From positions 1 through 34,648 of IMG/VR virus record IMGVR_UViG_3300037558_000224: 34,648 bases of DNA. One strand, 5' to 3'. The translations under genes and the position numbers were made by a program. Below the pieces are notes generated by a model. That model saw only the letters and a list, made by a program, of their open reading frames with translations, had not been told where the DNA came from and did not search any database. Numbering within the stretch: the stretch's first letter is position 1; each line of letters begins with the position of its first letter. Source of the DNA: a virus. This document shows positions 1,204 to 31,308 of the stretch, one piece after another.

Positions 1204-3172
1204 CACACACGCCTCCTGTACACGCTAGCTCCTGAGATGCAGTGGTATGGTCGCGGCCCTGTTCGTAGTCAGCTAGCTTCGACCAGTCCACGTTCTGCGG
1301 GATATGCTCAAGCAGGCGCTCGTACTGTGCAGGCGTGATGTCTTGGTAAGGTGCCTGCTCATAGGTGTGGTCGCTGTGGGGCAGGAAGCTCACGCCCGAC
1401 ATCAGATCAAAGTGCTTGAACACCCAAGCCCCCACTGCAGGCCACTCATGATCTCTCACGCTGACCGTGATCGAGGGCTTATGACAGCAGAAGTTCGTTT
1501 GATACTCCAGCCACATCTCTAGTTGCTCGATGGCCGTCATATCATTGCGTGTGAGTGCGCCAGCCGGTGCTTTCATTGGGAACGAGAACACGGTGGTCGT
1601 GGCACCATTGTAAACGCAAGGAGCGTGAGGAAAGCCTGCGTCTCTCATGAACGAAGTCACTGGGTCGTGGTTGTCGCCTCTCACGGTCCTGACATAGTAT
1701 GGCGAGTGCCTTGCGTGTATCCCAGAGGCACTGTCAACAAGGCTGCTCACAGTCCCACTTGGTTTGACACAGGTGACAGCCGCCGCCGTGTTAATGCCTA
1801 ACTTTGTGGCCCACTGATGGTTGGTCGTGATAGCCACGTTGCGGAGGTGTCGAAGCAGGGCACCGAGGCCGTATCCATTCATGCCATTAGTGTACGGGTT
1901 GTCCATGATGCCGGTCATCGACACACCGAGCAAAGCCTCCTTTTCTGTGTTCTCACGCCAGATCGGACGCAGATAAGGAAACGACGTCAGCGTGGCCTGT
2001 ATCGTGCCCAAGATAGTCGCCAGCCTGATCTTGCGCTCAAGGTCAACCGGAGTATCCGTAGCTCTGACCACGACCTCAGTGAGGTTGCAGAACTGACCTC
2101 CTGTCGCCGGTATGCCTTCGCCTGTCTCAGGATCAATGCGCTGTCCACGTAACACGATCTCACTGCAGGGGTTCGTCCCGAACTCGTTCATGTGGTCGCG
2201 ACCTATCATCTCAGCATGTCGCCGCGCAGCTTCCCTGTTGAAGATGCCACGCTCACCTGAGCCACTCTTAGCCAGCGACAGCCATTCCTCCATGAACTCA
2301 GTGCTCGTGGGCGTGTGCTCATATGCAACGCTGTTGTTCGATAGAGCAAAGTGCTGATTGTCCTTCCACCACTCGCCTGACTTAGCCAACCGCATGTCAT
2401 CGTCGCCTAAGTCCGACAATGAGATCAATGCTGACCGGCGCACCCCGCCAACGACCACCACTTGGCCCACCATGCAGATCAGGCTGTGGACCTCGATTGG
2501 TGTCAACTTGCGACCCTCTGCGCCTTTAAAGATCTTGACTGTGTGGTTAAAGAGCTTCTCTAGCGGCTCAGGCCCACTGGCACGGCCACCAAATGTCTTG
2601 AGCGGGGCACCGGCAGGCCTCACACGGCTGAGATCCCAGTCTGGTTGTCTGCCCATCCACAGTAGATTGATGAGGTCTTGGAAGGCGTAGGCCCATCCCT
2701 CTTTAGAGTCCTCGACAATGATCAACTCGGACCCATCAATGATAAACGGTGGCACCTGTGGCAGGCTATCGACATACTTCTGTTCGCAGCTAAAGCCGAC
2801 CCCCGTCCCATTGAGTAAGATGTAGAGCACTTCGCTGAACGTCTGAGGATGGTCGATAGGCGTGTAGCTGCAATTGAATCCTGCAATGTTGCTTCGATCT
2901 AACGCAGGCCCCGCAGTCATCAGCGCACGCATCGAGGGCATGACCTCGCACCCAAGGATCGCCTGCTCTAGCTCTTCGATAATCGGAGTATTCTCATTGT
3001 CGTCACCGATTTCATTGAAAACGACGTTATCGATGTACCGACCGACAGTCTCGGACCAAGTCTCACGTCGCCCATCAATGAACTTGGCATCAATGAACTT
3101 GGCATAGCGACTGGTGTGGATGAACCGTTGGAACTCGGTAGGTAAATAGTTACTATTGTTATTGTCAGTCAT
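1175..3172 (-). CDS. nrdJ: Class II (adenosylcobalamin-dependent) ribonucleotide reductase
   Basis: The 665-residue enzyme reduces ribonucleotides to deoxyribonucleotides for phage DNA synthesis, using coenzyme B12 as radical source. Visible marks are C101 in FNCSYTPID and the active-site motif NPCSE with C336 and E338. The C-terminal redox pair is C651 and C656 (ACTGGVC), which regenerates the active site. There is no sign of an R2 subunit or a glycyl-radical motif, which fits the one-subunit class II type common in marine phages. At about 5-10% shorter than the Lactobacillus enzyme (739 residues), it is a normal phage length. The start overlaps the DUF3310 gene by 8 nt (ATGACTGA), suggesting translational coupling. 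Residues 24-33 carry a tandem AKFID-AKFID duplication. Confidence 0.95.
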   Translation of the reverse strand: MTDNNNSNYLPTEFQRFIHTSRYAKFIDAKFIDGRRETWSETVGRYIDNVVFNEIGDDNENTPIIEELEQAILGCEVMPSMRALMTAGPALDRSNIAGFNCSYTPIDHPQTFSEVLYILLNGTGVGFSCEQKYVDSLPQVPPFIIDGSELIIVEDSKEGWAYAFQDLINLLWMGRQPDWDLSRVRPAGAPLKTFGGRASGPEPLEKLFNHTVKIFKGAEGRKLTPIEVHSLICMVGQVVVVGGVRRSALISLSDLGDDDMRLAKSGEWWKDNQHFALSNNSVAYEHTPTSTEFMEEWLSLAKSGSGERGIFNREAARRHAEMIGRDHMNEFGTNPCSEIVLRGQRIDPETGEGIPATGGQFCNLTEVVVRATDTPVDLERKIRLATILGTIQATLTSFPYLRPIWRENTEKEALLGVSMTGIMDNPYTNGMNGYGLGALLRHLRNVAITTNHQWATKLGINTAAAVTCVKPSGTVSSLVDSASGIHARHSPYYVRTVRGDNHDPVTSFMRDAGFPHAPCVYNGATTTVFSFPMKAPAGALTRNDMTAIEQLEMWLEYQTNFCCHKPSITVSVRDHEWPAVGAWVFKHFDLMSGVSFLPHSDHTYEQAPYQDITPAQYERLLEHIPQNVDWSKLADYEQGRDHTTASQELACTGGVCDVVDISSAA
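3074..3103. repeat. 15-bp in-frame tandem duplication in nrdJ
   Basis: ATCAATGAACTTGGC is present twice in direct succession (3074-3088 and 3089-3103). It duplicates five residues (AKFID) near the reductase N terminus without changing the frame. The two units are identical, which points to a recent slippage or duplication. Confidence 0.85.
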
Positions 3173-3404
3173 TGATTGCTTTGCCTTCTAGCTGATTGAG
3201 ACGCATGTCGATGTACCGCCGCGCCTTCTTAAGATCTGTGATTTCGGATTCATCAGGGGTCATACCGACATAATGTTTCGAACCGGCGCGGACTGTGTAT
3301 TTGATCACGTTGCCAGCCCAGAAACTCAGGCCGTTGCCCATGATGAATGTGCTTGGTTCGATTGACCATTTGGCATAGTGATCAGGTGATTTAATGATGC
3401 TCAT
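3165..3404 (-). CDS. DUF3310 family protein (SaV-like)
   Basis: This 79-residue protein has the hallmark order of DUF3310: DHY near the N terminus (residues 8-10), then LSFWAGNVIKYTVRAG, then DLKKARRYIDMRL. The family is very common in phages and is sometimes annotated as a nucleotide kinase or MazG-like protein, but its biochemical role is not settled. It sits between a hypothetical gene and nrdJ, overlapping the first by 4 nt (ATGA) and the second by 8 nt. It is therefore part of the nucleotide-metabolism end of the operon. The family call is strong; a direct function cannot be given. Confidence 0.88.
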   Translation of the reverse strand: MSIIKSPDHYAKWSIEPSTFIMGNGLSFWAGNVIKYTVRAGSKHYVGMTPDESEITDLKKARRYIDMRLNQLEGKAIND

Positions 3405-3952
3405 GTCTTAGCCCCGAGCCTATGCTTGTCGCGCATGTATCTCTCGTCCCGCTCGCGCTCTTTTGCATCAATGACGTGGCCGCAGTTGGCCCTGCCTTTA
3501 GGCGTGAGCCGCCACATGCCCTCGGTCTCCGCTGGCTCAATGAAGTCGCGCATTTTAAGGATGTCGAAGATGTGCTGCACATGACGTTTGACGCAAAGCT
3601 GACTAGTGGCGACGTTCTGCACAGTGTCTCCCAAGTGATCCATCAGCAGCATGTGCTCATAGGTCCTCAGTGCAGCCTTGTGGACAGGCAGACGGGCCTC
3701 TCTGGTCACTGCAGTCAGCGAGTGCCGAGGCTCGGGCTCAGGGCGGTAGATCTCAGCCTCATGAGCGGCGATAAGCTGCCCGAACACGGTCTCTTCGGCT
3801 TGGGTCATCGGGGCCAACTTCGAGCCCCTGTTGCGATAGCTAAACAAGTGCTTCCAGTAGCCGCTTAAGACGACGCCCTTGAGCGGGTGAGGCGGCGCAG
3901 ATCCGAAGTGCTTGTTGTGTGGCTGGCGCATATAATGTGGATCAAGTGTCAT
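3401..3952 (-). CDS. Hypothetical protein, possibly with a winged-helix-like C-terminal half
   Basis: I do not recognise a named family in this 183-residue soluble protein. The C-terminal half (about residues 90-160) reads as helices followed by a segment containing LKMRDFIEPAET then WRLTPKGRANC. This is the usual look of a winged-helix domain: recognition helix, then a wing with 'L.P.G'. The N-terminal half is basic and proline-rich, with HPLKGVVLSGYWKHLF. It overlaps both neighbours by 4 nt (ATGA), so it is certainly translated within the operon. A DNA-binding or regulatory role is only a suggestion from predicted fold features. Confidence 0.7.
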   Translation of the reverse strand: MTLDPHYMRQPHNKHFGSAPPHPLKGVVLSGYWKHLFSYRNRGSKLAPMTQAEETVFGQLIAAHEAEIYRPEPEPRHSLTAVTREARLPVHKAALRTYEHMLLMDHLGDTVQNVATSQLCVKRHVQHIFDILKMRDFIEPAETEGMWRLTPKGRANCGHVIDAKERERDERYMRDKHRLGAKT

Positions 3953-4509
3953 TGTGCTTGTCCCCCCCGCCGCAGGGGCTTAGCCAGAAAGAACAGGAGA
4001 GCTGCAGCAATAACTGTGACCAGCACTTTGCCAAATATCTGACCCTCAAGATGAGCAAGTGAACCGAAAGCGATGCTTAAGAAAAGCACACTATCAACCA
4101 CGCTGCCGACTACTCCGCTGGCAAGAATGCCCAACTCGCGACTGCGTTCTCTTATGCGGGAGTAAACCGCAAAGTCGCTCAACTCGCTGACGCCGAACGC
4201 GACAAGTGACGCAATGGCGATAAACGGGTCGGCCAGCATGTACGACAGCACCGCGCCAACAAGAATGGCAGCAAGAGCAACTTTTGCCCCTAGCCACTCA
4301 TGCACCGCATCGCGCAGCAATAATGCCACGCCGATCATTAATACGCCTGAAGGGGCCATGATGCCAAAGCCCAAAGGTATCAAGCACGGTCCATCTATGA
4401 TGCAAACAGTGCCTACATTGTGGATCATCCAGTTCGCCGTAGGTATAGTTGCGGCGTAAAGTGCAGCGGCGACATAGCCAGCTTTGTTTCGGTCAATCTC
4501 TATCATCAT
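3949..4509 (-). CDS. VUT family (YhhQ/QueP-like) queuosine-precursor transporter
   Basis: This 186-residue integral membrane protein has about six hydrophobic segments. Family marks are NW near residue 27, then PLGFGIMAPSGVLMIG, then LLRDAVHEWLG, SELSDFAVYS and VGSVVDSVLFLSIAFGSL. VUT/YhhQ proteins import 7-deazaguanines such as preQ0 and preQ1 across the inner membrane. The start is the ATG at 4509: AAGGAG lies 8 nt upstream and the ATG overlaps the previous stop as ATGA. Coding frame upstream of this point is an accident. Its partner is the adjacent DpdA-like gene, which would use the imported base. No preQ0 biosynthesis genes are visible in the window, so salvage is the simplest reading. 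Confidence 0.88.
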   Translation of the reverse strand: MMIEIDRNKAGYVAAALYAATIPTANWMIHNVGTVCIIDGPCLIPLGFGIMAPSGVLMIGVALLLRDAVHEWLGAKVALAAILVGAVLSYMLADPFIAIASLVAFGVSELSDFAVYSRIRERSRELGILASGVVGSVVDSVLFLSIAFGSLAHLEGQIFGKVLVTVIAAALLFFLAKPLRRGGQAQ

Positions 4510-5186
4510 ATCATCATCTCCTTTTGTTCTGCTCTGACAGCCCAAAACGCTGGGCATTGCACGGCATCGATCCGTCGGGCCATGCGCTCTGGGCAAATGT
4601 TTAATTCGTTGTGATGGCGAGCCACGTTGGCGCTGTCGGCACTGGCAAACGGCCACTTATCGCCGCTCAGAGCGAGGCCACGCAGCATGTGTATCCAAGG
4701 CGTTATTCCGCGCTTCACGATGGCGTTGAATGCCTCGTCTGCTCTGCGCTCCCATGCTGCGCTTCCGACCTGCCAGTATCGACCAGATGACCCAAAGCAA
4801 AGTTTGCCGAAACCAAGATCAAGCAGGCGCAATAGATGCTCAATCGACTCTCCCATATGCCATACAACAGCACTGCAATCGTGTCGGTGGGGCCACTGCT
4901 TGATTAGATGCAGATTATCGTCAGCCGTGCCATCGATGACGTCTGGCACGACAGCCCAATGCGGATGTGATAATCGTGGTTCGAGCCACTTGTAATAGCC
5001 GTTCCAATCGGGCTCTTTACTCTGCGTGTAGGCAGTGAAAGCGCCATTGTCCCACATTACGCTCTGGCCGTTGAGTAGGCACCAGTCGCCGTCACGCTTG
5101 TCGGCGAAGCTGACGCAAAAGTGCTTGCCTGCCATTGCCAGTATTTTAGCGTGAGGCGTCACTGGCGTCCCGTGGTAATGTATCAT
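4506..5186 (-). CDS. TGT-fold protein, DpdA-like DNA/tRNA base transglycosylase
   Basis: This 226-residue protein resembles short phage members of the tRNA-guanine transglycosylase superfamily, the DpdA group that swaps guanine for a 7-deazaguanine in DNA. It opens with MIHYHGTPVTP. Candidate TGT landmarks are D46 in MWDNGAF (like the DSGGF substrate-binding motif), D82 and D85 in PDVIDG, and LCFGSSG around 129-135. D184 in FASADSANVAR lies where the nucleophilic aspartate is expected. It lacks the C-terminal zinc-site cysteines of bacterial Tgt. It is coupled by a 4-nt overlap to the VUT transporter gene, which supports a base-exchange role. I infer DNA as substrate from the phage context; tRNA is possible. 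Confidence 0.78.
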   Translation of the reverse strand: MIHYHGTPVTPHAKILAMAGKHFCVSFADKRDGDWCLLNGQSVMWDNGAFTAYTQSKEPDWNGYYKWLEPRLSHPHWAVVPDVIDGTADDNLHLIKQWPHRHDCSAVVWHMGESIEHLLRLLDLGFGKLCFGSSGRYWQVGSAAWERRADEAFNAIVKRGITPWIHMLRGLALSGDKWPFASADSANVARHHNELNICPERMARRIDAVQCPAFWAVRAEQKEMMI

Positions 5187-9865: not shown

Positions 9866-10312
9866 TTATGCTGGCATTTGACACTCGGCCAACCAGTCGT
9901 CAGGAATCCACCTATGTGCATACTTCCACCCGTGCTTTTCGCAGTAGGCGGCGTATGTTGTCGGTGAACCTTTGTAGAGCTTTGCCCTCTCGTTACTGAA
10001 CACAAAGCGTATGTCGAGATCAGGCGATTGATCCTTGATCAGAAGGTGTTTCTGTCGATCTTGGACCGTCCAAATGCCTTTAGTCTCGATGTAGATAAAG
10101 CCGCCGTCTTTCTTCGGCAGCTTGAAATCTGGAGTGTACTTGGCACCCCGTTGCGGTACGACGTAAGAGACCTTGTCAGTCTCAAAGAGAACCGGCAGTC
10201 CTGCTTGGGTTATCTGATCGGCGACCTTAGCTTCAAGGCCCGACCTATAACCATGCTTAATGCCGACGCGCTGGCGACTACGACGCCTGCTACTAGTAGT
10301 CGAAGTCATCAT
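9866..10312 (-). CDS. Endonuclease I, Holliday-junction resolvase (T7 gp3-like)
   Basis: This protein of about 148 residues cleaves branched DNA and helps degrade host DNA. It matches T7 gp3 along most of its length: RSGLE (Glu ligand), YTPDF (Asp ligand) and IYIETKG (Glu and Lys of the PD-(D/E)XK site). These are followed by KHLLIKDQSPDLDIRFVFSN and KLYKGSPTTYAAYCEKHGWK. The start is ATG 10312 or 10309, both inside the end of the SSB gene; the overlap is about 17-20 nt. No clear Shine-Dalgarno sequence is visible, so translation may depend on coupling. The extra N-terminal stretch is basic and serine-rich. Confidence 0.94.
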   Translation of the reverse strand: MMTSTTSSRRRSRQRVGIKHGYRSGLEAKVADQITQAGLPVLFETDKVSYVVPQRGAKYTPDFKLPKKDGGFIYIETKGIWTVQDRQKHLLIKDQSPDLDIRFVFSNERAKLYKGSPTTYAAYCEKHGWKYAHRWIPDDWLAECQMPA

Positions 10313-10838
10313 CTGGCAAAGCATCGCCGCCTAGATCATCGTTCTTACTAGTCTTCGGAGCGACGTAACCGCCCTCGACAGCATCGAACCCTTCACCGTC
10401 GTCATCAAAGTCACCATCTGACAGCGACAGGATTTGGACTTTGTTAAGGTTAAGGTTGATGCCTTTGTTAATCTTTGACTGCTCATATTCGCCAATGGTA
10501 CCAACGACCTTCAACTTTGACCCTGAGTAAATCTTCGGCGCGTTGGCAAAATGAATTGGCGTAGTTGCCGCGTCCACGAACTTTGGCTCATACAAAGTCT
10601 TAACAACAAATACGACATCGCCAGTATCTTCGTCAATTTGCCAAGGCATCTTAAGCTTGTCAGCATTACCGAAGGCTTCCTCGCCAGCTTTTAAGCACAT
10701 TGTCATCAAAGGCTTGGCAGCTTCTGGAGACATAATTAGCTGTGTTTTGAACTTATTGTCCAAATGGTCAACTTTGTGTAACCGAGGATATCGAGCGATG
10801 CCCTCGGCTGATCTGAAGTTTATCTTAGTCTTTCCCAT
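10293..10838 (-). CDS. Single-stranded DNA-binding protein (T7 gp2.5-like)
   Basis: This protein of 181 residues coats single-stranded DNA and recruits polymerase and helicase. The body has an OB-fold-like pattern, with VVFVVKTLYEP and YSGSKLKVVGTIGEYE. The C-terminal tail is strongly acidic and ends DDDFDY, like the acidic tail with terminal aromatic residue of T7 gp2.5. The start is ATG 10838 (MGKTKINFRS), with AAGGAA 8 nt upstream. A longer frame to 10886 would run through the promoter-like element at 10873-10897, so I reject it. It is the first gene after that element, so it heads the replication operon. Confidence 0.93.
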   Translation of the reverse strand: MGKTKINFRSAEGIARYPRLHKVDHLDNKFKTQLIMSPEAAKPLMTMCLKAGEEAFGNADKLKMPWQIDEDTGDVVFVVKTLYEPKFVDAATTPIHFANAPKIYSGSKLKVVGTIGEYEQSKINKGINLNLNKVQILSLSDGDFDDDGEGFDAVEGGYVAPKTSKNDDLGGDALPDDDFDY

Positions 10839-10904: not shown

Positions 10905-13700
10905 TCAACTAAAGCAGTAGCGGCTTTCGAGGACTCCGTTAATGTCTAGGTCGCCCTTGGCAGGCATAGGCGTCTTAAGCTTGGCATCAGCGTCTGCAAG
11001 CTGCTCTCGCACCTCGGTCTCAAGGGTCTCAAAGAAGCAAGTGCCACCATAGATATCGACGAACACACGACGCACTAAGTGATACATCGTGTCAGTGTCG
11101 GCAGCTTGGGTCGCAAATGAGTCATGTATCATAAAGAAGTCGTTGATGCCCTTGCCTGAGTCCAGCATCGCGCAGATCGTGAGCGCCATGTGCCCTGCAT
11201 CCGCTGCATGAATCAGGTTAGGGCTTGCACTATTCGATGCCTTTCGACTGTCGATCTCGTCGTGCTTATCTTCGACCATCGTGATCTGGGACCGCTTGTA
11301 GATCTTAGCCTCTCGATCCCAAAGAAACACGCGCACCCTCATCCGCTTGGTCTTCTGATACCTCTGGAACACGGGGAACCCACTGGCTGACGTCGAGCGC
11401 ATGACCTTGTTTTCTTTGCTCAATGCCTCTGAAAGTCCGCGCAGATAATCCATAGCTCCTGAGACTGACTTCAGCGTCTCCCTGATTGTCTCGTACTGTA
11501 TGTTGGCTAAGTACCGAGCAGCGTCTCTCTGCACATGGTCATCGCCAAAGGGGTGCTTCTTGATCTCCCTGTACGCAGCTTTGCGCTCAAGCGGGACCAT
11601 GAAATCCTCCATGAGTTGGTCGTACATACCGTTTTGATTGCTGCTATAGCCAAAGGTCATGGTACTACGTTTGCACACCGTGCGAGTTATGCCAAAGTCC
11701 AGCCATAGACGCGCCAGATCACCCAAAGTTGGGGTGTAGCCACGCTCGACCACGTTGCCATCCTTGTCGGTCTTAATCGCATATGGCAGCGTCTTGTCGC
11801 TGGTCAGGTCTTGCTTGACACGCTCTTCGACGGCCTTAGCGACCACGCCATAAACATCTTGGCAAGCGTCGTCTGGGACTAGGTTAACGAGGTATCCATC
11901 GACAGCGTTAAGAGTGGCGGCAGCATAGTGCTGGGTGCCACTGTTGGTGCCATCGAGGCTTGGAGGCAAGTGACACACGTACCCTGCGCCGTGATCGCAG
12001 TACTCAGCGTAAGCCACGCAAGCAGCCAAGAACTGGAACGGCTTATCGGCTCGGCTCCAATCACCAAAGCTGGCTTTGAAGTCATCGGCGCAAGCAATCA
12101 ATTGGTCGTGGTTATCATCGACCCAAGCTGCGCGGTCCTCAAAGCTTTGCTTGCTGATCTTGTCGAAGTCACCGCAATTTGCAAGGTGGACCTTGATCCA
12201 CTTTGGATCTGTGACGGCCTTGCCCCGAGCAAACTGAAACATTGCTTTAATGTGGTCAGCACGGTGGTAATTCAACGTGGACAGCATGTACATACGACCT
12301 CGGAAGTCCATGTTCCAAGGAGTGTAGAACTGATCGTAACTTTGCATATCTCGGGCAGTCTTCAGATCACTCTGCATACAGTGCCGGTTTGCCACGACCT
12401 CTCGCCGCTTTAGGTGCCACTTGCGTAGACCAGCGCGATGCTGCGATTTGACCTTGTCGCTCAGACCTTCGTAATCTTCGGGTAACACAGGCCTCGGGGG
12501 AGCCTCTGCTGCGGGGAACTTCTTGAACATCTTGGCCTCGTCCCAGCACCACTGTACCGCATCGACCACAGTGTCGTTGATCGCCAGAGGCGTGGCCTGC
12601 AGTGCATTGACCGCTCTCACGTATGACGGGTCACCAGCGTCCAAGTCGGCCTCGACGGCGCGCTTCTGAGCGCCTGTAGCGCCACGGACTAGGCTGATGT
12701 CACCACCGGCGCTTAGGTCCGTGAGGTAGCCGCCATCGGTAAACGTCGTCCAAGGGATCGGTGGTACGACCATAGGCTGGTATACTGGGGCCATCCAACG
12801 GGCATCCATGTCATTGTCTTCCAAGAGTTGCCGAGCCTCGTCGGTCAGATCGATGAAACGCTTGGACTTCGTTGCCGACACGTATTCAGTGGTAACTTGG
12901 AAGATGTCAGTGCTGCTCAAGACGCTATTGATTACAAAGGTCCCAATGACAGCGCGGTCTTTCTTTCGCAGCTTAGAGTGCGAGGCCAGCGTCGTTGATG
13001 GCTTGTAGCCTTCCTTGGTGGCAATGTGTCTGATGGCCTTCTGGCGATACCGTAGCGCCGAGTGAGCTTTGGTGACTTGCGCCTCGACGCGCTTCGCCAT
13101 GACCTTGTCAAAGGCAAGGAACTCAGCCCACCAAGCTTGGTGCTCGATAGCCTTGGAGATGCGGAAACCTATGCTGTCTATGCCTGACGTGAGTGAGCCT
13201 TGAGAGCCTACTGCGTCCATCATGGTAGACAAACCTATGAAAGCAAGCGTCTCGGGGTTGTTGATGTCTTTAGCTATCTTGACCCACAGTGGCGGCGCAC
13301 CGGCTCCTGCAACAGCCTGACGCAAGCTGTCTTGGATCGCCTGAGCGACGTGGCCGACAACGCCTTCGATCAATCTGTGGGGTTCGTTTGCTTTGCTGTA
13401 CGATGCGACACCTGTAATGTTGCCGTCTTGGTCGTACTTGGCTCCTGCCTGTGATGCCTGCCTGCTGATGTATCTGTCGTGGCCTTCATCGGCCATCTGT
13501 TGTTCCCGCGCAATCTGAGTGTCGAAGAGAGAGGCTGGTGGGGCTTTGTTTGGGTTGAGCCAACTTGAGACTGGTGCCACGCCGACGCTGCCTTGGCCGA
13601 CGTTTCCTTCGAGAGCCGGTGCCACAATGTTAGCGTCGTTCCACGCAGGTACATGTTGGCTGTAGACCATCCCACTTCTAGTTGCTTTCTCGTTAACCAT
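10905..13700 (-). CDS. T7-type single-subunit DNA-directed RNA polymerase
   Basis: This 931-residue enzyme would transcribe phage middle and late genes from its own promoters. Palm and fingers motifs are complete. D465 lies in MDFRGRMYML (T7 D537). K677 and Y685 in KRSTMTFGY keep the same 8-residue spacing as T7 K631 and Y639. D860 lies in MIHDSFATQ (T7 D812). The C terminus ends RYCFS, like the aromatic 'FAFA' foot of T7 polymerase. It is about 50 residues longer than T7 RNAP, mostly at the N terminus, the promoter-recognition and melting end. ATG 13700 has GGGAGA 7 nt upstream, formed by the last codons of the integrase gene. The adjacent 25-bp element is its likely promoter. Confidence 0.96.
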   Translation of the reverse strand: MVNEKATRSGMVYSQHVPAWNDANIVAPALEGNVGQGSVGVAPVSSWLNPNKAPPASLFDTQIAREQQMADEGHDRYISRQASQAGAKYDQDGNITGVASYSKANEPHRLIEGVVGHVAQAIQDSLRQAVAGAGAPPLWVKIAKDINNPETLAFIGLSTMMDAVGSQGSLTSGIDSIGFRISKAIEHQAWWAEFLAFDKVMAKRVEAQVTKAHSALRYRQKAIRHIATKEGYKPSTTLASHSKLRKKDRAVIGTFVINSVLSSTDIFQVTTEYVSATKSKRFIDLTDEARQLLEDNDMDARWMAPVYQPMVVPPIPWTTFTDGGYLTDLSAGGDISLVRGATGAQKRAVEADLDAGDPSYVRAVNALQATPLAINDTVVDAVQWCWDEAKMFKKFPAAEAPPRPVLPEDYEGLSDKVKSQHRAGLRKWHLKRREVVANRHCMQSDLKTARDMQSYDQFYTPWNMDFRGRMYMLSTLNYHRADHIKAMFQFARGKAVTDPKWIKVHLANCGDFDKISKQSFEDRAAWVDDNHDQLIACADDFKASFGDWSRADKPFQFLAACVAYAEYCDHGAGYVCHLPPSLDGTNSGTQHYAAATLNAVDGYLVNLVPDDACQDVYGVVAKAVEERVKQDLTSDKTLPYAIKTDKDGNVVERGYTPTLGDLARLWLDFGITRTVCKRSTMTFGYSSNQNGMYDQLMEDFMVPLERKAAYREIKKHPFGDDHVQRDAARYLANIQYETIRETLKSVSGAMDYLRGLSEALSKENKVMRSTSASGFPVFQRYQKTKRMRVRVFLWDREAKIYKRSQITMVEDKHDEIDSRKASNSASPNLIHAADAGHMALTICAMLDSGKGINDFFMIHDSFATQAADTDTMYHLVRRVFVDIYGGTCFFETLETEVREQLADADAKLKTPMPAKGDLDINGVLESRYCFS

Positions 13701-13704
13701 GTTT

Positions 13705-14628
13705 CTATCTCCCGTTAACTTTGTTGCTGCTATTGTTAAACCTTCTGCCTAATTGAGCGCCGACGTCTGCCGCAGCGTCTCCCTTGATATGCACGTAACC
13801 CTCTGTGGTTTTGAGCGACTTGTGACCCAAGAGACGTGCGATTAATATTGTGTTGATCTGTAGATCATTTGCCATCGTGGAAGCCGCAGTGTGGCGCAGG
13901 CTGTGAAAGACAAATGTCTCATCGTTTGGTGCTATGGCCTGACGTGCGGCACGCATAGCGTCATAGAAAGGATGTTCGCGGAAGTGCAAAGCAGGGCGAT
14001 TGTCGAGCTTTGCTAAAGCCTCAAGCACCGCCTCGTTGGCAGGGACGCGCCGGTCATCGCCGTTCTTGGTTTGCTCTAGCACCAGCCACGCGCCATTCTC
14101 ATCGTGTTCAATGTTGTCGGGGTCCAAGCTGCGTATCTCTCCGAGCCGCATGCCTGTGTTGATGCCAATGATGACAAACTCTCTGACAAAGCGATAGTCT
14201 TCGGGCAGACCGGCAAGGTAGCCGAGCAAAGCATCCAACTCGCGGTCACTCAGGAACCGGCGCTTGTGTTGCTCATGCTTACCAATCTTGCGGAACTTGA
14301 CGCGGGGTGCCTGTTCAATGAGACCCATTTCCTCGGCATGTTTGAACACAGCAGACAGACAGGCAACGTACCGATTCGTCGTTGCTGGTGAACACCCGTT
14401 GGGCTTTCGCGCCGTTGGCGTCGTCTCAATGTGCGACATAAAGATATACAAGTGTTCCGCACTAAAAGAGTCAAGCTTTTGATTTCCATAGTCGGAAAAG
14501 GCGCAGAACCTCTGCATTTTCGCGAGGGACTTCTTTTCATGTGCGCCACCGCCCCAGATGATCCTAGAGTGCGTGGCAACGAAGTCAGCTAGCGTTACAG
14601 TTGATTTGCGTGCGTTGACATTGGTCAT
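13705..14628 (-). CDS. int: Tyrosine recombinase, phage integrase
   Basis: This 307-residue site-specific recombinase inserts the phage into the host chromosome. The catalytic set is complete: R161 (GMRLGEIRSL), K188 (TKNG), H242 and R245 (HSLRH), H269 (LLGHKSLKTT) and Y278 (GYVHI). The N-terminal half holds a SAM-like core-binding domain. I chose ATG 14628, because GGGAG lies 9 nt upstream; the extra 43 codons upstream run into the non-coding attP-like region. It lies immediately before the RNA polymerase gene with a 4-nt gap, the arrangement known from temperate T7-like marine phages. It implies a lysogenic option in an otherwise virulent-looking T7-type genome. Confidence 0.95.
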   Translation of the reverse strand: MTNVNARKSTVTLADFVATHSRIIWGGGAHEKKSLAKMQRFCAFSDYGNQKLDSFSAEHLYIFMSHIETTPTARKPNGCSPATTNRYVACLSAVFKHAEEMGLIEQAPRVKFRKIGKHEQHKRRFLSDRELDALLGYLAGLPEDYRFVREFVIIGINTGMRLGEIRSLDPDNIEHDENGAWLVLEQTKNGDDRRVPANEAVLEALAKLDNRPALHFREHPFYDAMRAARQAIAPNDETFVFHSLRHTAASTMANDLQINTILIARLLGHKSLKTTEGYVHIKGDAAADVGAQLGRRFNNSSNKVNGR

Positions 14629-14791
14629 ATCGTGGTCTCCCAACCCAGTGTTAATCTGAGAGGCCCAATATATACTAATGTTTTCAACAACTTCCGCTGC
14701 GTGCGTCTCCGCGAGGGAGTTACAGTCCCCTGCCACACCTTGCGGCCTGTCGCCCAAACTTTAGTAACACTGGGTCCAGCCCTGTAATCGC

Positions 14792-18409: not shown

Positions 18410-19560
18410 TTAAGACAGGCCGGTGATCATGTGAGAATCAGCAAAACTGGAGTGCTTGCATGAGATTTCAGCCACGATCTGGTGTCTGTCGGAATCGCCA
18501 TTCTTGGCAAGCAGGGTGCGTGTGTAAGGACGCAGTACCACTTGCTTGAACATCGATGGATCGATGAGAAAGGCGTGGGTCGTAAGCTGGTGACGGTTAA
18601 GTACGACTTTGTACTCACCGAAAGGACCAACATAGAGGTCGATCACATTGACCAATGTCTTTGTCGAAGCAAACTCACGGTTACGCCCAGAGGCGGCTGT
18701 GAAGCCTGCAATGATAAGACCATCGGCTGGCTTGACCATAAGCACAGACGGATCTGAGCCTTTCTCGAATGCGTCTTGACCTGCTACGAGAAGCTTGGCT
18801 TCAGTGAGCGGATCAGTCGCATTAGAACCGGCGTCTGTACTGTTTGTGATCATCTGATCAATCGAGGCCATCTTACGAGCAGCAGAGGCAGTGCCTGTTA
18901 CCGCAGCCTGAGATACACCAACAAATGCTCGCTCCTGATCGCGCTTGATTTCCTTCAGGGCTTTGCCCATCTGGTACGCAGTTTCCTTCGCACGACCATA
19001 GGTCTTGATCGCGTCAGCAGTTGCTGAGATTTGGAAGGCTTTGGTTAGGATCTGAGTGACGTTAGACCGCATGGTCGTAGGCGAGAGTGTCGCCATAGAT
19101 GCGTCTGCCCCTTCAACGGCGGCGTTGACCGCTGCGCTTGCAAGGCTGTCTTCCTGCCATTCAAAGACACGGGCGTGTGTCTTCTCAGACTTCATCAGAG
19201 TTGACATGGGGGTGTCGGTGGGAGTGATGTCGGTTATGCATTGTGTTCGCCTAAGTTCGTTAATCTTAGACCGCCCGAGGGCTGCTATAGGTTCATAATC
19301 CCCATAGATCAGACTATATCATCACCCTGCTTTCACAGGGGCTGTGCGCTTCGGACCACTTGGCCCTACTCCCCGAAAGGATAGTCGTTGCACCTTCCCT
19401 CACATCTGCAAGGGCTTGGCTCAGGATTGTCCAACGTGGGATGTTCCCTGAGTTCACACAGTTTGTTTTGACGGATTGCTCCGAAAGGACACCATTGTTA
19501 CCTAATGTCCGAGACATCTTCCGCTTTCCCAACTTGGTTGTAGGTCGAATATGTAGCCAT
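18410..19560 (-). CDS. Major capsid protein (DUF5309/SU10-like), gene split by a group I intron
   Basis: Exon 1 is 19505-19560 (56 nt) and exon 2 is 18410-19238 (829 nt). Joined they give 885 nt, exactly 294 codons plus stop. Exon 1 encodes MATYSTYNQVGKAEDVSD and two bases of the next Ile codon. Exon 2 continues ITDITPTDTPMSTL then KTHARVFEWQEDSL. The joined N terminus (EDVSDIITDITPTDTP) matches the family pattern, whereas an unspliced gene stops after 20 codons at TAA. AAGGAGG lies 7 nt upstream of ATG 19560. The downstream ATG at 19207 would give a truncated protein lacking the conserved N-terminal arm and is very unlikely to be the real start. The protein is the hexamer/pentamer shell subunit, of HK97-like fold by family. 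Confidence 0.92.
19239..19504 (-). ncRNA. Self-splicing group I intron in the major capsid gene
   Basis: This is a 266-nt intron without an ORF. It begins after exon T 19505 and ends with G 19239. P1 pairs exon GGACAT (19505-19510) with the guide GTGTCC (19487-19492), including the U-G pair at the splice site. P2 is CGGA-GCAA-TCCG (19472-19483), with a GNRA loop. P3 is TTGGAC (19429-19434) with GTCCGA (19351-19356). P7 is GACTAT (19381-19386) with ATAGTC (19312-19317). P8 is CCCTG/CAGGG (19325-19340) and P9 is CTATGGG/CCTATAG (19285-19307). Core text AATCCTGAGCCAAG and GATATAGTC is classical. A hairpin between P7 and P3' suggests subgroup IA. A 3-bp P10 (ATG with exon CAT) is possible. Confidence 0.93.
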
Positions 19561-25365: not shown

Positions 25366-28300
25366 TTACGCGGCGAACTGTTGCTGTGACAGAGCACCGG
25401 CTTGGGGTGACAATGCGCCCGCAGGCATTTGCTGGCGCTGTTGCTCTTCCTCTTCCTCCTCGGCGCGACCGTTGAGCATCATGGCGAGAACGACGGCGAC
25501 GATGGTTGCGAATGGGTAGGCGTGAAGCTTCAAGTCTGGGTTGCCCGAGGCGTTGAGGTTCTCTTTAATTAACCGCGAGGTGGTTGGTGCAACGGCTTTT
25601 GCCAGACGTGGGTTCACAAAGTACAAGAGCACGGGATCAACAGCCCTCTCGTCTGCTTGGTTTATATAGTCCAAGAAACGATTGACGCGGGGCGTCTGTG
25701 ATGGGTCATCTTTACGGGCTTGCAGTGCCGCCATGACCCGACGAACAGGCCGTCGTTGTTTGGGGTTATTCTCAACGTAAAGATCAATGTTCTTTTGGAT
25801 ATTGTCGATCTCTTTGTAGACGCGCTTGCGGACACTGTCGCTGTATTCTGAGTTGTCCTGCATCATACGGTCAATGACGCTTTCAAAGCCGCTGTCTTTA
25901 GCCGCTGCGTGACCAAGCTCATGTAATACAGTGGTCAGTGCATAGAGGTCGTTGACGTTACCAAGCGTCTCAGCTTGAGCACCAGCGTTCATGCCCCAGA
26001 CAGTGCGACCTAGCTCGGAGTAAGCGCCTCTGATGCCTTTAGCATTCTCTGTCAGTGGGCGACCCATGTCGTCAAACATCTCTTGCTGGCTGTCAAACAG
26101 ACGAACACTGACGTTAAGAGCTTTACTAAGTTGCAAAGCGGCATCGATGTCTTGGATGCCGTCAGCGTACTTTGTACCGGCCTTGCCGATCTCAAACGCA
26201 GGGCGAACGAAGGGAAGCTGTGCTTTCACTTGATCAGGTGTAGCAGGCTGGGAGCCAAGCATCTTGTTGACCAGCGACTTCATGTTGAGCGGGGATTGCG
26301 GTTGTGGCTGCTGTGTTAAAGCGCCTGCGCTCTGGTCTGCAATGTCTTGGTCGAAGGACTGCTCGATCATTTCGTCCGGTGCGATGTTCTCAGACCACGT
26401 CCATGAAGGCATTACGCCTATCTTTTGGTCTGCAAACTTAGTGTCCTCAACACTGGCAGTTTGGTTGTTTTCTCCGTGCGGGCCATAGTTCAAATACGAG
26501 TTCTGACCTCGCGTTTCGCTAGTCATTGCGCCTCGGGCAGGGCCAACAAACAAACGAATGTGAGCTTGGAACGCATTCTCTTCGCCGCGTGCTCGGAAGC
26601 CTGATCCCTCTAATCCATGACCAAACGCATCGTGTACGGCTCTGAATAAATCATTATACAGTACATCTTTGGGGGAGCCATCTTCGTTTACCCAAGTTTC
26701 GCCAGACGTCTCCAGCAAAGGGTTGTCATCGAAGGTTGCATTCTCGTCGCTTCCGTAGCCTTCATCAGTTGGGAAAATGCCCATACGCTTGTTTAAGCGG
26801 AGGTCCTCCAGCGCAGTGACTGGGCTGTCCCCGTAGCCACTGTCGGGGTCAATGAAAAAGAAGGTGTACCCGTCCTGCACAAGAGCGTCATACTGGGCTT
26901 TGGTTTGCCTAATCATATCAGCATATGCAGCTTTGACCGCTGGATCGTTAGGCTGATCTTTCATCTGATCGTAAGCTTCTGCCACTCTTGCGCCAAAAGC
27001 AGGGTCTACATTTACAAACTCGCCCTGTGCAACATACGGGATATTGTTTTCGGCGGCGTACTTTTCGACGACCTTGACTAGGTTTTGGATCGGGCCTTTG
27101 TGGCCTCGGAGAACCGGCGCATCTTCAAGCGGCGTAAGCTGCCCGTTCGAATCCCTGCGGCTTCTTCCTCTGCCTCTGTCGTTGGCCTGTTTGCCTCGTA
27201 GTATGCCTGCTGGCTCTTGGTCAAAGGATTGTCCTGCGTCGAGGCTGTTTGTTCCTCCGTTAACGGCATCAAGGGCCCGTCCATCGGAAACTGCTTGATC
27301 TTGCCGTAATTCTTCATCAGTTCTTCGAACTTGCTTGCCATGTTCTTTTGCTTTCTCCGCTAAGGCCTTAAGGTTTACTTCATCTCTGAAATACCAAGGC
27401 GCATTCCCACTTTGTGATACGCGGAATTTACTTGGAATAACCCCGCTTTTCGCGCTTTTTACCGCTTCTAAGAAGGAAGTAAACTCTGGGACGGTGAATT
27501 TAAAGTCCCCAGCATTGGGAACATTGTAAATAAATCCCTTTTTGCCATCAATGATGCCGTATCTAGCGCCATAAGCAAAGGCCCCATATTCGCCTTCTTT
27601 AGCCATAACACCGTCTAGCGGGTTAGGGTCACCTTTTGCCCGTGCTAAAATAGCGTCTATTGTTGCATGAGAGGCTTCCTGCTCTGATGAGGCCACCCAC
27701 GTTTCCCAGTGATAGCGTCCAAGGCTAGCGACTTCTGGCCTGCCAATGTCTTGGTATATTTGCGGGAGCCTGCTTAATAAAGATTGCTCTAATGCTTCGT
27801 AAATGAGCAGACCCCTTGCGCCGTTTGTCAGAGTTGAAAGCTGGGAGCCAGTGACAGTCTTGCCCTTGTCTTTAAAGCCATCATATAAGTTAAGGCCATC
27901 AAAACGGCCATCGTTCCACATCTGCCGCATCTGCACACGGTCCATAACGACCACGTCATCAAAACCGGCGACCAGCAGAGTGAATGAAACTACTTTGTTA
28001 TCTACGCCAACGCCTTCGCCCATCCGCATGAACTGACGCCGGATCTCTTTGCCGGTGGACTTCGGATCGGCCATCATGTCGTGAATGACTTGCAACCTCG
28101 ACCGTCCATCACCAAGGCCTGCGTCACGCGACATTTTCAACAGGAAATCTCTGCCAAAACCATTGAGGTTGTGCATTGCTCCTGCGCCAGATTGCCCAGA
28201 GCCTCGCGGTGCTGTTGTTTCTGCCCATGCGTAAAACGCAGGCATTTGGTCTTTTAAAGTTCCATCAGCCGCTGCGCCTATCCACTTATCAATGCCATCA

Positions 28301-31300
28301 AAGCTGTCAATGAATAGACTTTCTTGCGTGTAGGGGCTAACGCCTTTTGAAAGAAACGACCAAAGGAATAGACGCCCTGTATCGTTAACACTTATCGTAC
28401 CATCGATGTAGGCCTGACGAAACTCCCGCGCATTTGCAAAACCGTGATCAGCGTCTGCAATTTGACCAGCCGTCAGCTTTGATAACAGCGCCTGCGCTCC
28501 ACCATTGTTTATATCGTCAATAAACTGCCGTGGCGGGGCGGGGATGTCTCTTGTTGCTAGGGCGTCACCCATCATGTTAGTCCAAGACGTTACCGACTCG
28601 GCAGGGTCTGGGTAGCGGGATAAAACCTCATCAATTGCATTGATCTGCGCTGAAGCATTTTTGTTGTTGGTTTTGATCGTGAATAAGGGCTTACCATCAC
28701 GCGCTTTTGGAGCTTTTACGCGCAAGTGTGGCATAAAACCGTGGGTGTTTTTAGTCGCTTTTATCTGCCCGTCCACTACCGGCATAGGCACACTCAGACT
28801 TGCAGTTTGCTTGAACACAGGCTTGGCAGGGCCTTGCTTTGGTGCTGGCCCAAAGTCCTCGTCAAGCGCCAGATCAGTGCCGGTGCTTGTCGGGGGCTGC
28901 TGGCGACCACTGCGGGCTTGCTGTCGCAGAACACGCTCGACGTAAGGCATGATGTGTCGATTGATTAGGCTTTCGCTGATCCCGTCGGACTTGAGCCTGC
29001 TTACGACATCCATAGCCGCCACTGCGGGGTCACTGCCAAGGTTGTACTGTAGTTCATCGAGGGCAGTCAGCAGTCTACCGCGCTCGGCAGGGGTCAGGCT
29101 TGTGTTTGCAGCGAGGCCTTGGCGCAGCTTCTCAAGCTGGGCGCGGTTGTCATCGATGCCCTGTTGCACGGCTGGACTGCGGCCCTGTGGCTGCTGTTGC
29201 TGCTGGGCGGTGCCTGCTGATGACTGGGCCGTAGAGGGTCCGAAGCCTGCGCGTCTGCGGGCTCGTTGTGCAAGTGGATTATCAGGCTGATCTTCGCGTA
29301 AGGCGTCAAGCTCTTCGCTCTGATTCAAAGTACCGTTGATAGCTTGAATCCAAGGCGAAATGTCGTCAATACTGTTGCCTTCACCAGCCAAGTTGCGTCG
29401 GGTTTGGTCAACGTAAACCATGACGTCGGGAGTAGTGTCTGGCGCAGTTTCAATGTAATCGAGAAGCTTGTTTAAGCCATCTGGGCTAAGGCCGGTGCCT
29501 GCTAGTATGCTTCCGACTGGGCTGTTGATATTGTCGCCGCCATCTCTTTTATCATTGTACGCTTGTAGACCAGCCCGTGTTGACGAGGCTTGCTGTGCTT
29601 GCTGTAAACGCTGCTCTCGGAAGCTTGGGGGACGAGGCGCGGGCAGACCAGCTTTGTCTTTGTTCTCTTTAATGAACTTATCAACACTGCTGTAAGTGCC
29701 TCGGGCTTTGTCGAGACGCTGTCCTATACTGGCGACGGCTTGCTGTCCTAAAAGAGATAGTCCGCTTGTGTTCAAACCAAAAGACAAAGAAGCGATTGGA
29801 CGCACTACGCGCTCTACGGCCACAGCAGATTTGTCGTAGCCTGTTCCCCCGCCTAGAACAGAGAACATATCAGTAAACTTAGAAAGTTTGCCTTGATAAT
29901 CGTTGTTGTGAACCTCGGTCATTATCTGAGATTCGCGGATCAGGTTCATCAAGGCCTGACCTTCGGTGTAACCGCCAACCAAGTCTTGCAGCGCAAGGAA
30001 GTTCTCTGCAGTGACAACCGACTTTGTCTTGTTTCGCGCCATCTTCTGAGCAACAGCAGCGCGAACCTTTTTAAAGCGCTGGTCAAAGGTATCTTGGTCG
30101 CTTTTGCGAAGCAGTTCTTTTAGGTCGGCTGCTTTATCTGCAATCTCACCTACGAGGTCTGTGTGAGCCGCTTCTACGACAGCCCTTGCCCCCGTCTGGG
30201 ACATTTTGTCGATATCTTGGAGGTCAAACGTGTTGCCATTTAAGTCGCCGCCGGTAGCAATCTTATCAAGACGACGCGCAAATGTAGCTGCAGCCTGCTG
30301 GTGCTCTCTAGTAAGGTTCTCAATGGCCTCAATGGAACCATCATCTTTGAATAGCCGAGTAGCCTTGCCTGCGGTCTCTGTGGTGGCGGTCATGGCCCCA
30401 CCCATTGCTGCACCAAGAACTGCTGAATCTATGTTTCGGTCAAGAACCTCTTTGCCAGTATACTCGGCACCTTGTGTGGCCGCTGTCCCCATAATGACGT
30501 TCTCTTGAGCCGCCTCGGTCACGCCCTCGATAGCCATGCCGCGCATGATATTCTTTGCAATCTTACCTTTGCCTGCCTTACGGAGTGCAGCGGTAATCTC
30601 ATCAAGAGACATAGTCAGTAGTTTGTCTTTTGAGATGCCCAGTGCTTTACTAGCGCCAAACCTGTCAAGCAGACCAACTATTGTACCGCCAATCACAGCA
30701 GCATTTGGGTTGTAGTCGTCTTCGCTTACTTTGGACTTTAGTTCATCGGTGGTTTCACCAATTCCCATTCCAACAGTCCCAACAGTAGTGAGGCCCGCGA
30801 TTAAAGTTGCGATTGGTACATGGTAAGGCGCAGTAAGAGCCGCCGCTGCATAGCCCCCATATGTTGCAAGCGTAGGTATGGAGTTCTCAACCATCTTCTC
30901 GCCAACAAAACCAAGTTTGTCTGCAGCGCCTTCTTGGTCTAGAAAGCTGCCTTGATATGTTGACTGGTAACCACGACGGGCAATGTCTGCCTCGTTCTTT
31001 TCGACAACAGACCGTCCATATTGAGCCATAGGACCGCCAACAGCGGGGACCGCCTGCTCAATGAAACGACCAGTGCCTTCAATAGCATTGCCTACAAGCG
31101 TTTGCGCCCTATCCACTGCAAACATGCCTCGGCTTGCGTTAGGGTCAACGTAACGCTCAGGCTGCTCGGGCTGGGCGGCTGCGGGCTGCTGTTGTCCGCC
31201 CTGCTGTGCCATCATCTGCTCTATGGCTGCATACGCGGCCTCGGGGTTAGCCACGCCTTCGACCTTGAACTTGCGCCCATCGGGCAGTTCAACTTGGAAA

Positions 31301-31308
31301 TTAGCCAT
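25366..31308 (-). CDS. Giant multi-domain virion/ejection protein with zinc-protease motif
   Basis: This 1980-residue protein begins MANFQVELPDGRKFKVEG, a small beta domain often seen at the start of large phage proteins. Residues about 143-184 are hydrophobic and membrane-active in look. Long Gln/Ala helical linkers follow (650-800). A domain at 1559-1600 carries HDAFGHG, RGEENAF and ETRGQN, a signature of large phage polyvalent proteins. HELGH at 1796-1800 is a zinc metallopeptidase motif with a hydrophobic lead-in (LYALTTVL). A hydrophobic helix near 1930-1946 precedes a Glu run and Gln-rich tail. AAGGA lies 9 nt upstream. Such giants are usually carried in the head and injected with DNA. 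The role is inferred; no activity is shown. Confidence 0.8.
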   Translation of the reverse strand: MANFQVELPDGRKFKVEGVANPEAAYAAIEQMMAQQGGQQQPAAAQPEQPERYVDPNASRGMFAVDRAQTLVGNAIEGTGRFIEQAVPAVGGPMAQYGRSVVEKNEADIARRGYQSTYQGSFLDQEGAADKLGFVGEKMVENSIPTLATYGGYAAAALTAPYHVPIATLIAGLTTVGTVGMGIGETTDELKSKVSEDDYNPNAAVIGGTIVGLLDRFGASKALGISKDKLLTMSLDEITAALRKAGKGKIAKNIMRGMAIEGVTEAAQENVIMGTAATQGAEYTGKEVLDRNIDSAVLGAAMGGAMTATTETAGKATRLFKDDGSIEAIENLTREHQQAAATFARRLDKIATGGDLNGNTFDLQDIDKMSQTGARAVVEAAHTDLVGEIADKAADLKELLRKSDQDTFDQRFKKVRAAVAQKMARNKTKSVVTAENFLALQDLVGGYTEGQALMNLIRESQIMTEVHNNDYQGKLSKFTDMFSVLGGGTGYDKSAVAVERVVRPIASLSFGLNTSGLSLLGQQAVASIGQRLDKARGTYSSVDKFIKENKDKAGLPAPRPPSFREQRLQQAQQASSTRAGLQAYNDKRDGGDNINSPVGSILAGTGLSPDGLNKLLDYIETAPDTTPDVMVYVDQTRRNLAGEGNSIDDISPWIQAINGTLNQSEELDALREDQPDNPLAQRARRRAGFGPSTAQSSAGTAQQQQQPQGRSPAVQQGIDDNRAQLEKLRQGLAANTSLTPAERGRLLTALDELQYNLGSDPAVAAMDVVSRLKSDGISESLINRHIMPYVERVLRQQARSGRQQPPTSTGTDLALDEDFGPAPKQGPAKPVFKQTASLSVPMPVVDGQIKATKNTHGFMPHLRVKAPKARDGKPLFTIKTNNKNASAQINAIDEVLSRYPDPAESVTSWTNMMGDALATRDIPAPPRQFIDDINNGGAQALLSKLTAGQIADADHGFANAREFRQAYIDGTISVNDTGRLFLWSFLSKGVSPYTQESLFIDSFDGIDKWIGAAADGTLKDQMPAFYAWAETTAPRGSGQSGAGAMHNLNGFGRDFLLKMSRDAGLGDGRSRLQVIHDMMADPKSTGKEIRRQFMRMGEGVGVDNKVVSFTLLVAGFDDVVVMDRVQMRQMWNDGRFDGLNLYDGFKDKGKTVTGSQLSTLTNGARGLLIYEALEQSLLSRLPQIYQDIGRPEVASLGRYHWETWVASSEQEASHATIDAILARAKGDPNPLDGVMAKEGEYGAFAYGARYGIIDGKKGFIYNVPNAGDFKFTVPEFTSFLEAVKSAKSGVIPSKFRVSQSGNAPWYFRDEVNLKALAEKAKEHGKQVRRTDEELRQDQAVSDGRALDAVNGGTNSLDAGQSFDQEPAGILRGKQANDRGRGRSRRDSNGQLTPLEDAPVLRGHKGPIQNLVKVVEKYAAENNIPYVAQGEFVNVDPAFGARVAEAYDQMKDQPNDPAVKAAYADMIRQTKAQYDALVQDGYTFFFIDPDSGYGDSPVTALEDLRLNKRMGIFPTDEGYGSDENATFDDNPLLETSGETWVNEDGSPKDVLYNDLFRAVHDAFGHGLEGSGFRARGEENAFQAHIRLFVGPARGAMTSETRGQNSYLNYGPHGENNQTASVEDTKFADQKIGVMPSWTWSENIAPDEMIEQSFDQDIADQSAGALTQQPQPQSPLNMKSLVNKMLGSQPATPDQVKAQLPFVRPAFEIGKAGTKYADGIQDIDAALQLSKALNVSVRLFDSQQEMFDDMGRPLTENAKGIRGAYSELGRTVWGMNAGAQAETLGNVNDLYALTTVLHELGHAAAKDSGFESVIDRMMQDNSEYSDSVRKRVYKEIDNIQKNIDLYVENNPKQRRPVRRVMAALQARKDDPSQTPRVNRFLDYINQADERAVDPVLLYFVNPRLAKAVAPTTSRLIKENLNASGNPDLKLHAYPFATIVAVVLAMMLNGRAEEEEEEQQRQQMPAGALSPQAGALSQQQFAA

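Follow-up and report, generated by a model that had tools for sequence, protein, structure and literature searches.

A compact group I intron in the major capsid protein gene of a marine phage and its apparently mobile, endonuclease-less relatives

How does a phage produce its major capsid protein (MCP) if the gene appears to end after 20 codons? This question is raised by the minus strand of the viral record IMGVR_UViG_3300037558_000224, all 34,648 nucleotides of which were analyzed and are referred to here as the window. An earlier note on this DNA had described a ribosome binding site followed by a short frame and, further on, by a second one, and had proposed that an unannotated group I intron lies between them. 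Coordinates and letters were as described: the ribosome binding site AAGGAGG (19574-19568, read directly from the letters) precedes an ATG at 19560, from which 20 codons run into a TAA starting at 19500, and a second frame, opened by an ATG at 19207, extends to 18410. Excising 19504-19239 (266 nt, without a protein gene) results in an open frame of 294 codons, in which exon 1 (19505-19560) supplies codons 1-18 and two bases of codon 19, and exon 2 (18410-19238) supplies the remainder including the stop codon at its end. The exon ends in U (19505) and the intron in G (19239), and under these U/G rules this was the only well-scoring junction for the window when compared with its homologues.

A search with the Rfam group I model RF00028, which the earlier note had proposed as a check, gave a match at 19514-19285 on the minus strand that scored 76 bits, above the cut-off of 50 (E 8.8e-18), and this was the sole match of the window at the cut-off of any Rfam family. 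While these positions are the extent of the intron according to Rfam, its 3' end at 19239 was set by the reading frame, the homologues and the terminal G. Joining the exons also restores the N-terminal part of the Pfam capsid profile PF17236 (SU10_MCP): the joined 294-residue protein matches positions 4-291 of 292 (3.1e-77), a full-length match, whereas the uncorrected 265-residue ORF from 19207 (3.8e-69) starts only at profile position 30 and scores 27 bits less. Homologues start at the same residue as exon 1. Had they aligned only from the internal methionine, the intron would have been in doubt; instead, intronless relatives are unbroken across the junction, and 154 of 196 MCP loci (tblastn; window counted, not deduplicated) are uninterrupted over essentially the whole protein, in both cases with the exon 1 part included. 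A promoter and terminator scan around the capsid gene revealed nothing above chance. By these sequence tests the intron is real, and we consider 19504-19239 (minus strand) a compact group I intron that splits an SU10-type MCP gene; its splicing we infer.

The helices that had been claimed for this intron were backed by covariation over 21 related introns, namely P1 with a U.G pair, P2 with a GNRA-like loop, P3, P7, P8 and P9, and in addition P4 and P6. On the minus strand, the internal guide GUGUCC (19487-19492) pairs with the exon end GGACAU to form P1, with U.G at the splice site, and AUG (19493-19495) forms P10 with CAU (19238-19236), the three bases that open exon 2. P3 unites 19457-19461 with 19346-19342 (100% of cells paired; four of five pairs changed on both sides), and the guanosine-binding helix P7 unites GACUA (19382-19386) with UAGUC (19316-19312; 100% of cells paired, two of five pairs changed on both sides). 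Across the alignment, which comprises 21 of the 42 distinct introns described below and none from L239, L240, L354, L355 or L368, 95.5% of cells are paired in a structure of 59 pairs and 12 helices that includes the P3/P7 pseudoknot. On every measure this structure scored higher than any of the 500 shuffles and any slid version. Of its pairs, 44 have a change on both sides, whereas the shuffles averaged 30.7 and no slid control exceeded 18, although pairs other than those of P7 are favored in this test because they were drawn from the consensus fold of the same alignment. Two hairpins (helices 8 and 9 of this structure) are located between P7 and P3, where introns of subgroup IA carry two extra hairpins; the intron may belong to this subgroup. 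All 17 aligned rows with letters at the 5' splice site retain its U.G pair, an exon-final U and an intron-final G being preset conditions of the junction search.

Guide pairing was more variable. P1 and P10 together form a mean of 8.3 pairs with an intron's own exons versus 3.4 with exons of other sites, and among all U-ended positions of the gene the window junction ranks in the best 1.6%. Pairing is weak, however, for 19 of the 42 introns, whose true junction falls outside the best 5% of U-ended positions; most of these cases come from sites 19 and 75 and from part of site 672 (site numbers are nucleotides of the window coding sequence). Fold energy alone fails to set the window intron apart, being only mildly low (z -1.9; 9 of 200 shuffles were as good). 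Between the window and its relative L003 the guide helix has changed on both sides in a compensatory manner (GGACAU/GUGUCC versus GGGCAU/GUGCCC), and the core is conserved, which argues against a dead remnant that no longer splices and leaves the capsid protein to start at Met 19207 (265 residues). That reading can point to the ATG that opens the second frame, but the strong ribosome binding site stands before 19560, none was seen by eye before 19207, and the short form would miss positions 1-29 of PF17236; we therefore regard it as very improbable. A start at ATG 19560 rather than at Met 19207 would give the N-terminal peptide MATYSTYNQVGK.

Every one of the 42 distinct introns, whichever of the three phases it is in, has an in-frame stop no farther than 30 nt from its 5' splice site, while a rate of about 38% is expected for random sequence, the 42 introns being related and hence not independent. 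A group I intron is hindered in its folding when ribosomes translate into it; with such stops in place, ribosomes on unspliced RNA would not traverse the ribozyme. The stops bear equally on whether the insert might be an intein, a site of ribosomal bypass or an assembly error, since any frame-splitting insert could first be read in these ways. They leave no open protein insert in any of the 42, the insert matches RF00028 and its helices covary, identical genes with the same insert recur across metagenomes (L302-L305 from four; L003 and L004), and a GenBank phage, C72C1, carries such an intron in its capsid gene (see below), so that we give these readings hardly any credence.

To place the window among its relatives, we used five capsid-protein scans of viral contigs, two of which contributed the best 80 of 145 and the best 80 of 189 loci. 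The resulting 247 MCP loci correspond to 165 distinct sequences, i.e., sequences that differ in the stretch from the first to the last aligned residue; some are probably from the same population, and truncated contigs are included. Among the loci collected, 32 of the 165 sequences contain introns and 133 are intronless (125 of these span at least 280 residues and eight span fewer). When genome contigs were scanned for the capsid protein, one relative emerged, L356, an intronless gene on a Gammaproteobacteria MAG contig. The 47 intron instances represent 42 distinct sequences of 245-291 nt each and occupy 12 positions of the MCP gene: sites 56, 75 and 319 are used in nine, 13 and eight genes, respectively, site 672 in five, sites 19, 165, 167 and 486 in two each, and sites 259, 338, 665 and 804 in one each. 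One complete intron is present in 22 genes, two in six, three in three (L242 and L243 have three each) and four in one. The last of these, L355, has its four introns within the 221 codons covered, and L354, which covers the other gene end, has introns at 486, 672 and 804 plus the tail of another at its start; their site-486 introns are 99.6% identical, and together the two loci account for six intron positions. L318, L319 and L320, with proteins 87-91% identical to the spliced L355/L354 query, are intronless.

Junctions were called by a script that demanded an exon-final U, an intron-final G, a kept frame and kept homology, except for those of L354, L355 and L368, which were set by hand from the sequence. 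The best junction was unrivaled except in L075 and L241, which have one near rival each (for site 259 of L241, a junction at 265). RF00028 matches the inserts of all 32 intron-bearing genes (for L075, in the longer copy L203). At site 165, the introns of L355 and L368 fall short of the cut-off, with 39 and 41 bits (E about 5e-11 when calculated for one record). The same model gave no match in the six intronless controls L002, L008, L021, L061, L079 and L237, in intronless L346, L356 and L320, or in L296 and L309, whose alignments begin at about residue 20 near a contig end. As to the choice of insertion point, the idea that introns sit at the most conserved residues was unsupported here: conservation near the insertion codons (0.65-0.88) falls on either side of the gene mean of 0.75.

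These introns were seen in one gene only. In the 24 intron-bearing records (471,139 bases, four records of at least 34 kb, 22 distinct MCP sequences), RF00028 has 34 matches, all 34 of which are inside MCP introns already called, and in 24 intronless relatives (751,032 bases, 14 records of at least 34 kb) it has none. Because many records are fragments, the absence outside the MCP gene is valid for the DNA searched and at the sensitivity of the model. The introns themselves encode no endonuclease, the longest stop-free stretch in any frame being 90 codons. The Pfam profiles HNH_3, GIY-YIG, HNH and LAGLIDADG_2 each identified no homing endonuclease in the 24 intron-bearing records, which are mostly fragments, and PHROGs identified none among 20 ORFs of the window, where a 152-residue protein (9866-10324) has its stronger match in the 'endonuclease' family phrog_945 and a weaker one in Holliday-junction resolvases. 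With no endonuclease from four profiles in 24 records, an agent of mobility was not seen.

The remainder of the window gives some indication of the kind of phage involved. A T7-like RNA polymerase is encoded beside a tyrosine integrase (10905-14757, minus strand), and the portal, capsid and adaptor are of SU10 type, making this a temperate-looking mosaic of podovirus modules. A 226-residue protein at 3949-5186 (minus strand) matches a PHROGs family annotated as queuine tRNA-ribosyltransferase and adjoins a membrane protein of phrog_4899, a family of unknown function, which by eye we take to resemble queuosine-precursor transporters. A protein of 1980 residues (25366-31308, minus strand) is, judging from its position, perhaps virion-associated.

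If no endonuclease is visible, have these introns moved at all? The window, L001 and L020 have exon DNA that is 90-92.5% identical, while their introns, at sites 56, 167 and 665, are only 52-64% alike. L020 and L001, whose exon DNA is 92% and 90% identical to that of the window, thus present empty alleles of its site and have an intron elsewhere. Conversely, introns at the same site can be far more similar than the genes around them: 93.6% versus 71.0% exon identity for the window and L003, and 92.6% versus 70.7% for L001 and L367, a near-identical intron at one site within diverged exons being one mark of mobile (homing) group I introns. Smaller differences were found for the window and L308 (76.9% versus 67.6%) and for the window and L030 (67.0% versus 66.9%). 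Since same-site introns reach 93.6% where exons stand at 71%, we interpret this excess as pointing to lateral movement. Among the 156 same-site pairs, a good number of which are related to each other, the intron is ahead of the exon by at least 10 points in 61. It lacks such a lead in the other 95, in four of which it is behind by at least 10 points. All four of the latter involve site 672 of L354, where the intron looks like a second arrival at that position.

Old introns, inherited vertically with many losses and without recent movement, would explain both the tendency of introns to group by site and the 95 pairs lacking a 10-point lead, such as the window and L030. We consider this unlikely in light of the 61 pairs that have such a lead, L003 and L367 being the partners in the most pronounced cases cited above. 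Nor does a slowly changing ribozyme fit, because same-site introns fall to 64-67% at an exon identity of 61-67%. On the MCP tree (FastTree), which left out the four short rows L245, L246, L354 and L368 and in which 30 of 161 rows are intron-bearing, intron presence changes at least 22 times. A quick intron tree, with weak branches, needs 12 site changes for the 12 sites; site 56 is not one clade in it, and the L020 site-665 intron is placed among the site-319 introns.

Lateral movement of the DNA might have left traces in the flanks of the introns. At site 167, L001 and L367 share 11 of 12 bases (-8 to +4), and none of 153 empty alleles matches L001 so well; the same test at site 56 was weaker (7 of 146). 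This short shared flank could fit copying together with short flanks, or selection for guide pairing. In reverse splicing, by contrast, free intron RNA would enter guide-matching mRNA sites, be copied to DNA and be recombined into the genome. Such a route would explain hopping within one gene without an endonuclease, as well as the choice of a very abundant late mRNA. It is consistent with the 12 positions in a single gene that contains all 34 matches of the 24 records, with the absence from these records of endonucleases of the four profiles, and with L354, whose introns at 672 and 804 of the same gene are mutual nearest relatives (79.3%). However, it requires a reverse transcriptase, the guides differ between neighboring sites so that the guide would have to be re-made at each move, and introns mostly keep their own site, as in DNA-level homing. 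The nearest relative of 35 of the 42 introns is at the same site in another phage; of the seven exceptions, five have their site to themselves and two, L071 (site 75) and L354 (site 672), do not. We therefore think reverse splicing improbable too, if somewhat less so than purely vertical descent, and prefer lateral copying at the DNA level.

To look beyond this phage group, we built a gene-blind core pattern from the introns of this capsid gene, and counted an intron as beside an exon when a stop-free stretch was close to it. The pattern identified at least 120 stretches with at least 128 introns. Among the matches listed, 84 of 128 introns adjoin capsid exons: 45 adjoin exons matching the model of this capsid family and 39 more adjoin other major head protein families, as assigned by one representative for each single-linkage cluster. 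Nine loci have no individual class (L189, L191, L198 and L202, with an exon; L111, L120, L155, L156 and L188, with a short exon). Merging exons that are 90% alike left 63 of 104 beside capsid exons among the matches listed, the control share given below being unmerged. When 74 of the other exons were scanned singly, the outcome agreed with these assignments: capsid-type Pfam families had 18, 12, 5, 3, 1 and 1 members, a total of 40 of 74 if the families do not overlap and of at least 18 in any event. By cluster representative, the other hosts among the matches listed are portal (5), ribonucleotide reductase (5), terminase (about 4) and endonuclease genes; single scans yielded two portal and three ribonucleotide reductase members.

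As a control, a pattern for another group I class identified 64 stretches with 67 introns, of which one is associated with the SU10-type model and about 15-20 with any capsid family (Pfam on 65 exons: 7 Phage_capsid, 7 Phage_capsid_4, 1 gpT; PHROGs: up to four more head proteins among the best 25 of 75 families). Using 19 of 67, and treating related contigs as independent, the difference from the census has a Fisher p of about 1e-6. Capsid genes are thus frequent hosts for the control class too, only less so, and uncultured phages in general may often carry introns in them. The control introns gave 11 LAGLIDADG matches; across loci L369-L432, introns of this class were also seen, in a fair share of cases, beside capsid and terminase exons, often with LAGLIDADG proteins.

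The window intron resembles stretches in 385 GenBank phage records. In a 60-row spread of these, 20 stretches are annotated as thymidylate synthase, two as DNA polymerase and none as capsid, many being unannotated or uninformatively annotated. One record, phage C72C1 (L434, OQ984150.1), has two separate 'major head protein' CDS within 2153-3354, separated by three small ORFs on the reverse strand. Between both pieces lies a group I intron (2434-2674), and the stretch that matches the window intron is annotated 'hypothetical protein'. By eye, the upstream exon ends in GTTGCGT, the intron ends in ATG and the downstream exon begins with ACCAGAAG, giving REVAYQKVLKSL, the same codon and phase as site 319. 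The earlier expectation that ORF callers truncate the capsid protein in this phage and its relatives is accordingly borne out for C72C1, annotated in two pieces, but holds for a minority of relatives, as only 32 of 165 sequences carry introns. Furthermore, assemblies may break at such introns: the end of L368 and the start of L338, both from sample 3300030328, overlap by about 76 bases (by eye), and the break falls at an MCP exon-intron junction.

Phage group I introns are usually discussed in DNA-metabolism and lysis genes, and are often moved by their own endonuclease. The earlier note had accordingly called a compact, ORF-less intron in a capsid gene unusual. Its compactness and lack of an endonuclease were confirmed, but the choice of gene has precedents. 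In the excerpts of the report on mycobacteriophage LittleE (cluster J), the major capsid gene contains an intron, most likely group I according to its authors, whose splicing was shown by RT-PCR and N-terminal sequencing, and Tuc2009 is cited as another case (PMC3706429). The LittleE intron shares the exon-final U and intron-final G, but, as described in these excerpts, it is about 820 bp long with an endonuclease ORF and occupies one site in one phage, unlike the compact introns at many sites found here; a 265 bp intron in a tail gene of BAKA also has no endonuclease gene (PMC3706429). Crass-like phages of the Delta and Zeta groups have MCP group I introns, with one MCP in five fragments; according to the excerpted account, these are larger gut phages, in which introns were recognized mainly via endonuclease domains and in which introns and inteins occur in other core genes too (PMC7886860). 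The introns of Jug phages are likewise small (about 206 nt on average), and metatranscriptome reads support splicing for 37 of 76, but, in the preprint excerpts, they are spread genome-wide, with 18.5 per genome on average, in terL, nrdD and other genes and with many endonuclease genes (PMC12363816).

The window intron also aligns with stretches in DNA polymerase genes (Salmonella phage Vi06, Aeromonas phage MQM1) and in T4-like td. These T7-like DNA polymerase and T4-like td introns have the same ribozyme core, with 69-79% identity over 56-61% of the window intron, but reside in other host genes and often adjoin an endonuclease ORF. In the open-access literature we found no report of a capsid gene in which introns without endonucleases use so many alternative positions, subscription papers and bioRxiv being mostly outside that search. 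Capsid-gene introns are thus known in phages, and what is new here is their density, their position-hopping and the missing endonuclease.

Taken together, we conclude, with a probability of roughly 93%, that codon 19 of the window MCP gene contains a compact self-splicing group I ribozyme that belongs to a laterally moving, endonuclease-less swarm. In the late transcript, the ribozyme would bind guanosine in P7 and cut after the exon U held in P1, P10 would assist exon joining, and the spliced mRNA would give the 294-residue capsid protein, while translation of unspliced RNA would terminate no more than 30 nt into the intron. The window intron would be one of a set of related introns that lack endonucleases, use 12 positions of the MCP gene in marine phages, and appear to come and go laterally between them. 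The likeliest route is that recombination in co-infected cells copies them into empty alleles, a process triggered either by a nuclease whose gene lies elsewhere (free-standing, or in the host or partner phage) or by ordinary phage recombination; of all the steps proposed, we are least sure of these. More tentatively, and with the odds somewhat against it, there may be a lineage of tiny endonuclease-less group I introns that is specialized on tailed-phage capsid genes, at many positions, several per gene and in different capsid families. Such a lineage may persist by removing cutting sites, and so shielding an indispensable gene from free-standing endonucleases, or via capsid-gene exchange in co-infection.

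The sole target seen among these relatives is one short, essential, highly expressed gene in which a dozen positions are in use and no endonuclease was seen; this density and exclusive placement, combined with lateral movement, should surprise a specialist. Since ORF callers can split the marker gene, as in C72C1, and assemblies can break at introns, as in L338 and L368, capsid-based surveys would miss or truncate such phages. Close phages that have exons 90-92.5% identical and introns at different positions offer natural material on how introns without an endonuclease move.
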